DNA of 54,182 bases from the NCBI GenBank assembly GCA_903861715.1, contig CAIOVI010000037.1:1-54182 (forward strand), given 5' to 3'. A program made the position numbers and the translations under genes. Each line of letters begins with the position of its first letter. Position 1 is the first letter of the stretch. Below, in pieces: positions 50,667 through 53,132 of this stretch. Below the pieces are notes generated by a model. The model was given only the letters and a program-made list of their open reading frames with translations. It was not told the DNA's origin and made no database searches. Origin of the DNA: an uncultured bacterium. Lineage in GTDB: Bacteria; Patescibacteriota; Minisyncoccia; Moranbacterales; GWC2-37-73.

Positions 50667-50810
50667 AAAGTTTTTAGGTTATTGTTAGGTATTTTCATTA
50701 TAACCCACTTTGGAACTCAAACAAGGCACCCATCGTAAAGCCACCCCGAAGCTGACTCTTGATATTTATAAAATTATCTGTTAATCTAAATTTTGTAAAT
50801 GAGTGATTTT

Positions 50811-51036
50811 GGAGAAGTGACTGAGAGGGTCGGATGCGAGTGTGCGAGCATCAGACGGGTTTCAAAAGAAACCCTGGCGGCCCGAAGTCCACAAATTTTT
50901 GAATTTACAAAGTAAATAGATATGGAGAAGTGACTGAGAGGGTCGGATGCGAGTGTGCGAGCATCAGACGGGTTTCAAAAGAAACCCGGGCGGCCCGAAG
51001 TCCACAAATTTTTGAATTTACGAAGTAAATAGATAT
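50811..51036 (+). repeat. Two 113-base units, each led by a tRNA-Ser(GCU) 5' fragment
   Basis: Unit a 50811-50923 and unit b 50924-51036 differ at only a few bases. Each starts with the first 18 bases of the tRNA at 51037 (GGAGAAGTGACTGAGAGG), ending at the D-loop GG. Then come a 9-bp stem (GTCGGATGC with GCATCAGAC), the hairpin GGGTTTC-AAAA-GAAACCC, a segment CCCGAAGTCCAC resembling the tRNA continuation, and an AAATTTTTGAATTT hairpin. No open reading frame and no anticodon arm. Confidence 0.9.
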
Positions 51037-51123
51037 GGAGAAGTGACTGAGAGGCCGAAAGTACCTCACTGCTAACGAGGCAGGGCTTAACCGCCCTCGA
51101 GGGTTCGAATCCCTCCTTCTCCT
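51037..51123 (+). tRNA. tRNA-Ser (GCU)
   Basis: 87 bases with a long variable arm (GGGCTTAACCGCCCT). Acceptor GGAGAAG/CTTCTCC, anticodon loop CTGCTAA, T arm GAGGG-TTCGAAT-CCCTC. The discriminator would be U73 rather than G73. The next three bases are CCA, the only possible encoded CCA in the window. Confidence 0.92.
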
Positions 51124-51185
51124 CCAAAAAACCAGGCTTTAATTTCGAGGCCCTCAGTTTTTTGTATTTTTGAAAAAAATAAATT

Positions 51186-51233
51186 GGAAGCATGGCCTCC
51201 GCCCAAGGCGGATCCGCCTTGGGCGGAGAGTGG
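51186..51233 (+). repeat. tRNA-Ser(UGA) 5' fragment split by a paired-hairpin palindrome
   Basis: 51186-51197 equals tRNA bases 1-12 (GGAAGCATGGCC) and 51228-51233 equals bases 13-19 (GAGTGG). Between them lies the 30-base palindrome 51198-51227 (TCCGCC-CAA-GGCGGA, then TCCGCC-TTG-GGCGGA). The insertion point is between tRNA nucleotides 12 and 13. Confidence 0.9.
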
Positions 51234-51252
51234 TTATTATTTCTTGTGGCTT

Positions 51253-51501
51253 ATGTACTACGTATATATTCTAAAAAGTAAGAAAAATAGCAAATTGTAT
51301 AAAGGATTTACTGCGGATTTACGTAGAAGAGTTGTGGAGCATAATTCTGGAAATTCTGAGTTTACAAAAAATAATAGGCCATGGAAACTTGTTTATTATG
51401 AAGCGTTTGTGAATGAAAAAGATGCAAGAAGAGAAGAAAAATTTGTAAAATCTGGAAAGGGGAGAGAAAGAATAAAATATTTATTTGAAAATCTAGAATA
51501 A
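51253..51501 (+). CDS. GIY-YIG nuclease domain protein inside a tRNA-fragment cassette
   Basis: 82 residues from the ATG at 51253. An upstream frame to 51184 only translates the tRNA fragment and palindrome. It is a stand-alone GIY-YIG domain: MYYVYILKSKKNSKLYKGF (first and second Tyr strands), LRRRVVEHN (catalytic Arg), FVNEKDARREEKFVKSG (catalytic Glu). Such small domains cut DNA in homing endonucleases and repair enzymes. It is flanked by direct repeats (ATAAATTGGAAGCATGGCC, 51182 and 51499), and the stop codon lies inside the second repeat. This placement suggests it is the enzyme of a tRNA-gene-targeting element. Confidence 0.88.
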   Translation: MYYVYILKSKKNSKLYKGFTADLRRRVVEHNSGNSEFTKNNRPWKLVYYEAFVNEKDARREEKFVKSGKGRERIKYLFENLE

Positions 51502-51504
51502 ATT

Positions 51505-51615
51505 GGAAGCATGGCCGAGTGGGTCAAATGCGAAAAAAGAGCATTTGACGGGTTTCAAAAGAAACCCAGGAACCCGAGGTCATTCAAATTTTTGCATTTT
51601 TGAAAAAAATATTAA
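51505..51615 (+). repeat. 111-base unit led by a tRNA-Ser(UGA) 5' fragment
   Basis: Starts with the first 18 bases of tRNA-Ser(UGA). Then a perfect 9-bp stem GTCAAATGC/GCATTTGAC, the same hairpin GGGTTTC-AAAA-GAAACCC as at 50811, CCCGAGGTC, and an AAATTTTTGCATTT segment. The first stem differs from the 50811 units at two pairs, one G:C to A:T and one mismatch to A:T, so pairing is kept. Confidence 0.88.
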
Positions 51616-51700
51616 GGAAGCATGGCCGAGTGGTTGAAGGCAACAGTCTTGAAAACTGTCATGGGGAGACCCATCGTGAGTTCGAATCTCACTGCTTCCT
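51616..51700 (+). tRNA. tRNA-Ser (UGA)
   Basis: 85 bases. Acceptor GGAAGCA/TGCTTCC, anticodon stem-loop ACAGT-CTTGAAA-ACTGT, variable arm ATGGGGAGACCCAT, T arm GTGAG-TTCGAAT-CTCAC. Discriminator U73, as in the other Ser tRNA here. No encoded CCA. Confidence 0.93.
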
Positions 51701-51708
51701 CAAAAAAT

Positions 51709-51730
51709 AAACACCTTTTGGTGTTTTTTT
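51709..51730 (+). terminator. Terminator after tRNA-Ser (UGA)
   Basis: AACACC-TTTT-GGTGTT followed by a T-run, nine bases beyond the tRNA. Confidence 0.85.
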
Positions 51731-51806
51731 GCTTACTTGAAAAAATTTTGAACAACCCAAGGTTTATGCTAAAGTTAAGTCAGTAAAAGTAACAACGAAA
51801 AAACCT

Positions 51807-52673: not shown

Positions 52674-52713
52674 ATCCTTGTAGCTTCCGCCCAAGGCGGA
52701 CAGGCAGTGGATA
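52674..52713 (+). repeat. tRNA-Arg 5' fragment split by a palindrome
   Basis: ATCCTTGTAGCT (near-copy of tRNA bases 1-12), then TCCGCC-CAA-GGCGGA plus CAGG (52686-52704), then CAGTGGATA (tRNA bases 13-21). The break is again between tRNA nucleotides 12 and 13. Nine bases later the intact tRNA begins. Confidence 0.87.
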
Positions 52714-52722
52714 AAATTTAAT

Positions 52723-52795
52723 GTCCTTGTAGCTCAGTGGATAGAGCGTCTGGTTGCGGTCCAGAAGGTCGCAGGTTCGATTCTTGCCAAGGACA
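52723..52795 (+). tRNA. tRNA-Arg (GCG)
   Basis: 73 bases. Acceptor GTCCTTG/CAAGGAC, D arm with A20 (AGTGGATAGAG, an Arg identity element), anticodon stem-loop TCTGG-TTGCGGT-CCAGA giving anticodon GCG, T arm GCAGG-TTCGATT-CTTGC. Most bacteria read CGN with an ACG (inosine) anticodon instead. No encoded CCA. Confidence 0.88.
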
Positions 52796-52803
52796 CAAAG
52801 ATA

Positions 52804-52825
52804 GCCCGCCGAAAGGTGGGTTTTT
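52804..52825 (+). terminator. Terminator after tRNA-Arg
   Basis: CCCGCC-GAAA-GGTGGG and five T, nine bases past the tRNA end. The outer bases CACAAA/TTTGTG extend the hairpin. Confidence 0.85.
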
Positions 52826-52863
52826 GTGTGCTTGGAGTGAGTGAATGATTTCACTCACGTCAG

Positions 52864-52960
52864 GAATCGAACGCCGGAGCAATTTTTGTCAGCAGACAAA
52901 AATGCGAGGCGGTGGCCAGACAAATTTTTGCGACGGCAAAAATTTAGTCGCGGCCGATTC
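52864..52960. repeat. Palindrome-rich insert with GAATCG/CGATTC ends
   Basis: Lies between the two copies of the tRNA-Arg 3' end. Its ends GAATCG (52864) and CGATTC (52955) are inverted repeats matching the T-loop sequence of the tRNA. Inside are GCAATTTTTGTC-AGCA-GACAAAAATGC and GAC-AAATTTTTGC-GACG-GCAAAAATTT-GTC hairpins. No coding frame. Confidence 0.8.
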
Positions 52961-53041
52961 TTGCCAAGGACACAAAGATAGCCCGCCGAAAGGCGGGTTT
53001 TTGTGTGCCTGGAGTGAGTGAAAGATTTCACTCACTCCAGG
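52955..53041 (+). repeat. Duplicated tRNA-Arg 3' end with its terminator
   Basis: CGATTCTTGCCAAGGACACA and the following terminator hairpin repeat the sequence from 52778, at a distance of 177 bases, with only a few changes. The copy ends with a perfect palindrome CCTGGAGTGAGTGAA...TTCACTCACTCCAGG (53008-53041); in the first copy the right arm of this palindrome is broken. Confidence 0.9.
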
Positions 53042-53132
53042 ATTAGACATTCATAGATTTTGTAAATTTGTAGCCAATTTGTATATTTGTAGGATTATTG
53101 ATTTTTCTCCACTTTTAGGGCAAAATGAAGAT

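Follow-up and report, generated by a model that had tools for sequence, protein, structure and literature searches.

A small folded insert ahead of tRNA genes in Patescibacteria that looks like a miniature mobile element

Tandem units containing a piece of a neighbouring transfer RNA (tRNA) are known from the tyrT operon of E. coli, where the repeats of rtT RNA (presumably Rfam family RF00391) carry the tRNA 3' end and lie downstream of the gene. Here we describe short units that lie upstream of tRNA genes and copy their 5' ends, in a 54,182-nucleotide (nt) stretch of DNA from an uncultured bacterium of the Patescibacteriota (GenBank assembly GCA_903861715.1, contig CAIOVI010000037.1), referred to below as the window. 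The small folded insert, or module, that these units carry ahead of tRNA genes looks like a previously undescribed miniature mobile element, one that invades tRNA genes without destroying them. No report of it was found in the searched literature, coverage of which was partial, and no Rfam family matched the module, either in the window at the gathering threshold or in positions 50750-51750 at E<=5. The likeness to rtT RNA is limited to tandem units holding a piece of the adjoining tRNA; the copied end and the side of the gene differ, no homology was found, and the rtT RNA model had no match in the window or in 50750-51750.

The mORFs of fungal mitochondria consist of a LAGLIDADG or GIY-YIG gene inserted in atp6, atp9, cox2 or nad3, together with a carried duplicate of the gene end (PMC3630166). 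As in the locus described here, the resident gene is split, its displaced part is replaced, the native part is left as a remnant and the replacement comes with donor sequence (PMC3630166), in our case at tRNA-Cys. In contrast to mORFs, the displaced part is a tRNA 5' end and the module lacks an open reading frame (ORF) and has a conserved RNA fold. The units are too small to hold a gene, and GIY-YIG ORFs adjoin them at some loci only, so that an endonuclease of their own, which mORFs have, is missing; it is the tRNA-side GIY-YIG copies in these genomes that match mORFs more closely than the module does. SegB of the T-even phages and related GIY-YIG homing nucleases make their cuts within tRNA genes, and amplification of tRNA regions is associated with them (PMC13096335, PMC2988022). 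These are phage nuclease genes for which no structured ORF-less partner is described, and their link to the module is one of location only.

Group I introns of bacterial tRNA genes resemble the module in their position in tRNA genes, in pairing with the 5' flank and in a patchy, site-specific distribution, whereas the module has no catalytic core, measures about 75 nt, sits in the D-arm and is accompanied by a duplicated tRNA 5' end (PMC3984707). Models of the group I intron core gave no match, whether in the whole window at the gathering threshold or in 50750-51750 at E<=5. Repetitive extragenic palindromic (REP) and miniature inverted-repeat transposable element (MITE) types of palindromic sequence are likewise short, hairpin-rich and ORF-less; the module, unlike them, has a fixed target in three tRNA families and a tRNA fragment within its fold. 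A T-box leader had no Rfam match in the window or in 50750-51750, and the module precedes tRNA genes and not the aminoacylation or amino-acid genes behind T-boxes. Integrase-type insertion into tRNA genes differs in that the module duplicates the tRNA 5' end and not the 3' end, is about 110 nt long and is gene-free. On these failed features, a group I intron, rtT RNA, a T-box and an integrase island do not fit as its identity.

Anatomy of the unit and its link to tRNA genes

Two 113-nt units (50811-50923 and 50924-51036), 90% identical to each other, stand head-to-tail 5' of an intact tRNA-Ser(GCU), as a preliminary description made from the sequence had reported. Its reading of their left part also held: each unit opens with the exact nt 1-18 of this tRNA, GGAGAAGTGACTGAGAGG, up to the D-loop GG, and continues with a 9-bp stem, which has one mismatch, and the hairpin GGGTTTC-AAAA-GAAACCC. 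The array comprises the following features, with coordinates on the plus strand of the window, which belongs to the source genome (G000).

50759-50787, plus strand: TTGATA-17-TAATCT, a probable promoter ahead of unit 1, recognized in the sequence and through comparison with genomes G003 and G013; absent from the list of a strict consensus scan
50811-50828, plus strand: unit 1 copy of tRNA-Ser(GCU) nt 1-18, ending at the D-loop GG (18/18 identity to 51037-51054)
50829-50856, plus strand: unit 1 P2 stem-loop GTCGGATGC / GCATCAGAC, 9 bp with one mismatch (covariation in 18 units)
50857-50874, plus strand: unit 1 P3 hairpin GGGTTTC-AAAA-GAAACCC (pattern search; alignment of 18 bodies)
50875-50892, plus strand: unit 1 3' segment (P1 strand) TGGCGGCCCGAAGTCCAC, its AGTC pairing with GACT of the fragment, GA facing GA (permutation of fragments against 3' segments, 72 units)
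50896-50900, plus strand: unit 1 U-tract within the conserved CAGUUUUUUG box (T-run at the expected position in most units)
50904-50916, plus strand: unit 1 P4-like hairpin TTTAC-AAA-GTAAA, between the U-tract and the next copy; other units have CGAGGCNNNGCCGAG (sequence)
50924-51036, plus strand: unit 2, a second complete copy (sequence comparison)
51037-51126, plus strand: intact tRNA-Ser(GCU) (ARAGORN, Rfam)

A third unit (51505-51615) opens with the 5' end of tRNA-Ser(UGA), GGAAGCATGGCCGAGTGG, and not with that of tRNA-Ser(GCU), and is followed by the intact tRNA-Ser(UGA) at 51616-51701; the unit is therefore tied to the local tRNA. The GGGTTTC-AAAA-GAAACCC hairpin has three exact copies in the window, where up to two mismatches give four sites against a chance expectation of 0.24, and the pattern GACGGGTTTCAAAAGAAACCC with up to three mismatches finds only the three window hairpins in the whole 1.28-Mb genome. 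Further, diverged units precede tRNA-Cys (contig C38) and tRNA-Ser(GGA) (contig C27) of the source genome. Hairpins with a TTGC loop, picked up by an initial search pattern, are unrelated to the module.

As the preliminary description had proposed, a covariance model was built and related genomes were searched with it. The model, R1, was made from 18 aligned bodies with the tRNA part left out, and with no tRNA columns in it the association with tRNAs is not built in. R1 matched in 13/18 genomes of the family and 27/128 of the order and, under stricter filters, in 26/383 genomes of the class and 10/379 of the phylum, giving about 80 copies over Patescibacteria. Nearly all copies stand directly upstream of a tRNA and are led by the 5' fragment of that very tRNA. 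A tRNA lies within 140 nt downstream on the same strand in 68/74 units: Ser in 53, with all four anticodons represented, Cys in 8, Leu in 6 and, in a single case, an orphan Leu-like fragment ahead of tRNA-Thr. Of the remaining six, most can be put down to the end of a contig, a run of N, a GIY-YIG gene in between or a broken tRNA, L199 being the exception, and five additional R1 matches likewise lie upstream of Leu or Ser. With this body-only model, then, the suspected link to tRNA genes held up and the module did not prove widespread independently of them. Fragment and tRNA match without a mismatch in 32 of the 74 units; between loci L065 and L079, the tRNA-Cys fragment and the intact 5' end are swapped alleles of the source genome and G001 (GGCGGAGCGG, GGCCGAGTGG). 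When 84,980 species genomes were searched for an exact 20-mer, eight records came back, all Moranbacteria/Parcubacteria or Patescibacteria, and viral contigs did not contain this exact 20-mer. Presence is patchy: most genomes have no unit, including sisters of genomes with up to five copies.

In these units the order is tRNA nt 1-18 (1-10 in Leu and some Ser), the P2 stem-loop, the P3 hairpin, a GG-rich linker, the 3' segment and CAGUUUUUUG, often followed by P4 (CGAGGCNNNGCCGAG or an AT hairpin), and then by a short leader and the intact tRNA. The body measures about 75 nt, or 110-120 nt with the tRNA part. In the 18-body alignment, 97.6% of the cells of P2 and P3 are paired and 7/16 pairs show two-sided change. 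The third helix, P1, is formed by the 3' segment, which is complementary to the end of the fragment. Over 72 units the P1 duplex energy summed to -831.5 kcal/mol for each unit's own pair against -635 +- 19 for permuted pairs (0/5000 as low; z about 10), counts inflated by the relatedness of the units. A separate matching segment accompanies each of the fragments with the D-stems ACU, GCU, GCC, UCC, UCU, CCC, CCA, CCG and CCU, which come from different tRNAs and families; pairing is perfect in L084, L194, L202 and L206, and in 30/40 D-loop-type units that have a matching segment GA faces the D-loop GA. One strand of the module's fold is the 5' end of the tRNA itself.

The pairing of GACT with AGTC pointed out in the preliminary description is one case of P1, a helix that follows the tRNA fragment over many tRNAs. 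Its suggestion that CCCGAAGTCC is a decayed continuation of the tRNA is not supported, because where the fragment stops at tRNA position 10 (Leu, some Ser) the same segment complements the acceptor strand; it is better taken as a pairing partner than as a D-arm relic. The proposed D-loop insertion is otherwise largely right: the module is placed exactly after the D-loop GG, and lies truly inside the D-loop in L063 and the Ser(GGA) loci. P1 is missing from the Ser(GGA) units of the family, in which, by eye, CAAAAATTCAAA pairs with a downstream TTTGAATTTTTG instead. A U-tract stands at the expected place, 3-5 nt 3' of P1, in 71/74 units; the plus-strand terminator scan listed no module site. We favour the reading that in the RNA P1 (fragment with 3' segment), P2 and P3 meet in a three-way junction, by which the body is closed on the tRNA fragment, and that the U-tract and P4 follow. 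Between units 1 and 3 (U1, U3) and L064 and L070 of a sister species, P2 is mostly rewritten with its pairing preserved while the remaining body is nearly unchanged; this could be explained by hairpin-templated repair, without selection on the RNA.

Replacement of tRNA genes and the proposed mobility

Empty and occupied tRNA-Cys sites can be compared within genus g5. Here the occupied G008 and G014 have the same native upstream flank as the empty G015 and G017, with a common terminator, promoter-like sequence and leader as far as the fragment. The tRNA-Cys that accompanies the element in G008 and G014 nevertheless agrees at 100% identity with the one found in another genus (G000, G003), and with those of its empty congeners at only 77-90%. 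A foreign-identical tRNA behind a native flank means that tRNA and element were replaced together, so that, as at mORF sites, a 5' fragment and a rebuilt, donor-like gene stand at the occupied site. Between genera, upstream flanks are near random (0.32 vs 0.27) and the element is 64-78% identical. Module-free G004 retains GCCGAGAAAATTTAAA, the right end of a unit, in its leader, which from its sequence would be the state left by deletion between repeats. The tRNA-Ser(GCU) of genus g1 (L001, L108) has only 75% identity between G000 and G001; such striking variation of a tRNA gene within a genus suggests repeated replacement there.

The unit has also been found within tRNA genes. In L063 (G015) it sits in a broken second tRNA-Ser, inside the D-loop, the remainder of which comes after it, and in the Ser(GGA) loci it is inside the D-loop with GAGTGCACC following. 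At the Ser(GGA) locus of the source genome (L226, C27) the D-loop belongs to an outer, 'ghost' tRNA in two halves, with a complete tRNA between them. In this locus and in L059-L061, the complete tRNA-Ser(GGA) enclosed by the halves of another tRNA-Ser(GGA) is bordered by the inverted repeats CAGTTTCAA/TTGAAACTG. Units group by tRNA across genomes and not by genome (0.741 vs 0.643), as expected for site-specific homing or vertical descent and not for free transposition.

The sites are shared with homing nucleases. At tRNA-Ser(UGA), sister genomes have the module only (G003), a GIY-YIG gene only (G001, G002), both (G000) or a putative LAGLIDADG ORF (G017); the G017 locus, L107, has an ORF with LAGLIDADG-like motifs, recognized by eye, immediately upstream of the tRNA. 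The 18 genomes hold 83 GIY-YIG matches, and 33 of the 74 examined lie within 300 nt of a tRNA. Many of the small GIY-YIG ORFs stop 2-12 nt short of an intact tRNA, for Glu, Ser, Cys, Gly, Leu, Lys or another amino acid. Several are preceded by the 5' half of their tRNA, whose D- or anticodon loop is broken by a palindrome. In L140, L147, L153, L158, L173, L176, L177 and L183 a small GIY-YIG ORF stands between such a palindrome-broken 5' half and the intact tRNA copy (Glu, Leu, Ser, Gly). These shared sites suggest that the nucleases may mobilise the module in trans.

On balance, we lean towards explaining the units as copies of an RNA-structured mobile element of Patescibacteria, small and protein-free, which resides in the 5' arm of tRNA-Ser, tRNA-Leu and tRNA-Cys genes. 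Insertion would take place directly after a GTGG-like motif, at the D-loop GG or position 10, and would leave the resident tRNA 5' end upstream as the fragment. A leader and tRNA 5' end brought in or duplicated downstream would rebuild an intact tRNA gene, with the element ending up in its transcribed leader, and recombination between the direct repeats would let the number of units grow or shrink. The element may enter through repair of a break, as homing elements do, with GIY-YIG or LAGLIDADG nucleases at the same sites perhaps acting in trans, and P1 may render the stay harmless or guide the choice of site.

Several points weigh against this explanation. No mobilising enzyme was identified and no copy was caught jumping; no within-genome rise in copy number was seen, and units of one genome are no more alike than background. 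The tRNA-Cys replacement is the sole clear case of horizontal co-transfer. Direct-repeat length varies, at about 28-39 nt, because the arrays have changed, so an exact target duplication is not fixed. The conservation of P1, P2 and P3 would also agree with selection for a host function.

This widespread structured RNA of Patescibacteria, which Rfam lacks, stands in the leaders of essential tRNA genes. It suggests that in reduced genomes tRNA genes are still being invaded by tiny elements and by homing nucleases, and the replacement of tRNA genes across genera bears on the evolution of these bacteria and on tRNA phylogenies. It also raises testable questions about gene-free mobility and the control of pre-tRNA folding.

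Alternative explanations

The main rival, serious though in our judgement unlikely, is a host cis-regulatory leader RNA, kept to control pre-tRNA maturation or transcription as a switch or as an attenuator acting through the U-tract. It owes this rank to the fact that two identical 5' ends are open to pairing by the 3' strand of P1 (P1'): that of the upstream fragment, the tRNA folding freely, or that of the real tRNA, the fragment capturing the tRNA 3' half. The module lies between the probable promoter and the tRNA. At tRNA-Ser(GCU), module-less G013 has TTGATA-17-TACTAT directly upstream of the tRNA, and G000 and G003 have TTGATA-17-TAATCT upstream of the first fragment; to judge from this arrangement the unit should be co-transcribed with the tRNA, and the element may act on the pre-tRNA that contains it. 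The compensated structure kept across families and the common U-tract agree with such a role. In predicted folds, too, the fragment occupies the 3' acceptor strand of the tRNA (mean probability 0.82), and the real acceptor stem forms with a probability of 0.21, compared with 0.95 in the bare tRNA. This preference is unspecific, however: in the folding of 65 leader-tRNA transcripts the acceptor stem stands at 0.25 with shuffled bodies (Turner 2004), and the outcome depends on the parameters (0.31 vs 0.25, p 0.11, with Turner 1999), with no consistent gain of the body over shuffled bodies in shielding the tRNA from its own 5' remnant. In units whose fragment and tRNA differ, P1' followed one copy or the other in 12 vs 8 cases (p 0.44). 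A regulatory role is further at odds with the patchy distribution noted above and with the normal tRNA that remains after precise loss of a unit, and 3-5 nt between P1 and the U-tract make a poor intrinsic terminator.

Quite improbable, in our estimate, is that the 3' segment acts as an RNA guide, pairing with tRNA-gene sequence upstream of the insertion point while a protein supplied in trans carries out the insertion, as a miniature RNA-guided, tRNA-specific element, or that the unit is a host RNA switch which, through pairing with either identical tRNA 5' end, sets the output of tRNA-Ser, -Leu and -Cys.

We likewise give little credence to a homing-nuclease scar, in which inserted nuclease genes leave tRNA 5' remnants and the module is a hairpin that settled in the loop of a remnant and neutralises its competition with the tRNA. 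The small GIY-YIG ORFs that so often end just before an intact tRNA, several of them after a palindrome-broken 5' half, agree with this idea, but the palindromes in those remnants are unrelated to the module and have neither P3 nor the 3' segment. The module, moreover, has a single architecture, conserved over the phylum and restricted to Ser, Leu and Cys, and equilibrium folding shows no clear protection.

An intron, with everything between the GG of the fragment and the GG of the tRNA excised, fragment and tRNA body joined into the same tRNA sequence and P1 as an intron guide on the 5' exon, is very improbable. The one exact insertion point after GG, with pairing to the 5' flank, would suit it; so would L063, where the element interrupts a tRNA without a copied 5' end, and predicted folds permit it. 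Yet no group I or other intron model matched in the window, the interrupted tRNA of L063 has a broken acceptor stem with an intact substitute adjacent, and elsewhere the intact tRNA is present in any case, so splicing is not needed.

That no special element is involved, and the tRNA 5' region was simply duplicated in tandem or misassembled, can hardly be credited: two tandem units on one contig of a 63-contig assembly might have raised the suspicion, but the same body recurs with covariation in many independent assemblies and families, which refutes this reading.

Other features around tRNA genes of the window and related genomes

Downstream of the array, the tRNA-Ser(UGA) locus contains the following features.

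51148-51185, plus strand: 3'-end remnant of a further unit (CGAGGCCCTCAGTTTTTTG and an AT hairpin), 5' of the Ser(UGA) fragment (sequence, compared with the units)
51186-51233, plus strand: tRNA-Ser(UGA) 5' fragment GGAAGCATGGCC..GAGTGG, split by a 30-nt palindrome at 51198-51227 (G001 and G002 are arranged alike)
51253-51501, plus strand: small GIY-YIG nuclease ORF, about 82 amino acids from an ATG, flanked by two Ser(UGA) 5' fragments (PF01541, E 6.9e-15; relatives)
51505-51615, plus strand: unit 3, with the Ser(UGA) 5' fragment (51505-51522), P2, P3, 3' segment, U-tract and AT hairpin (sequence; covariance model match at 51523-51594, E 1.3e-20, unit 3 being one of the model's source sequences)
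51616-51701, plus strand: intact tRNA-Ser(UGA) (ARAGORN, Rfam)

The tRNA-Arg(GCG) at 52723-52796 is also invaded. Upstream it has a 5' fragment (TCCTTGTAGCT..CAGTGGATA) split by a palindrome (52677-52722), and downstream (52778-53047) an insert that starts with antisense T-arm sequence and continues with a 93-nt repeat of the tRNA 3' end and terminator. A second element type, seen at L041, L042, L043, L046, L082 and L226, opens with T-arm sequence in antisense (GGGATTCGAA..) and closes with AAATCCC in sense orientation; it contains an ATGCGAG..CGAGCAT hairpin, which is P2-like, and adjoins tRNAs and contig ends. On contig C35 of the source genome (L035), a tandem tRNA 5' part (GGGTACATAGCTCAGTTGGTAGA) is interrupted by TCCGCCAACTGGCGGA, with a GIY-YIG ORF amid the copies.
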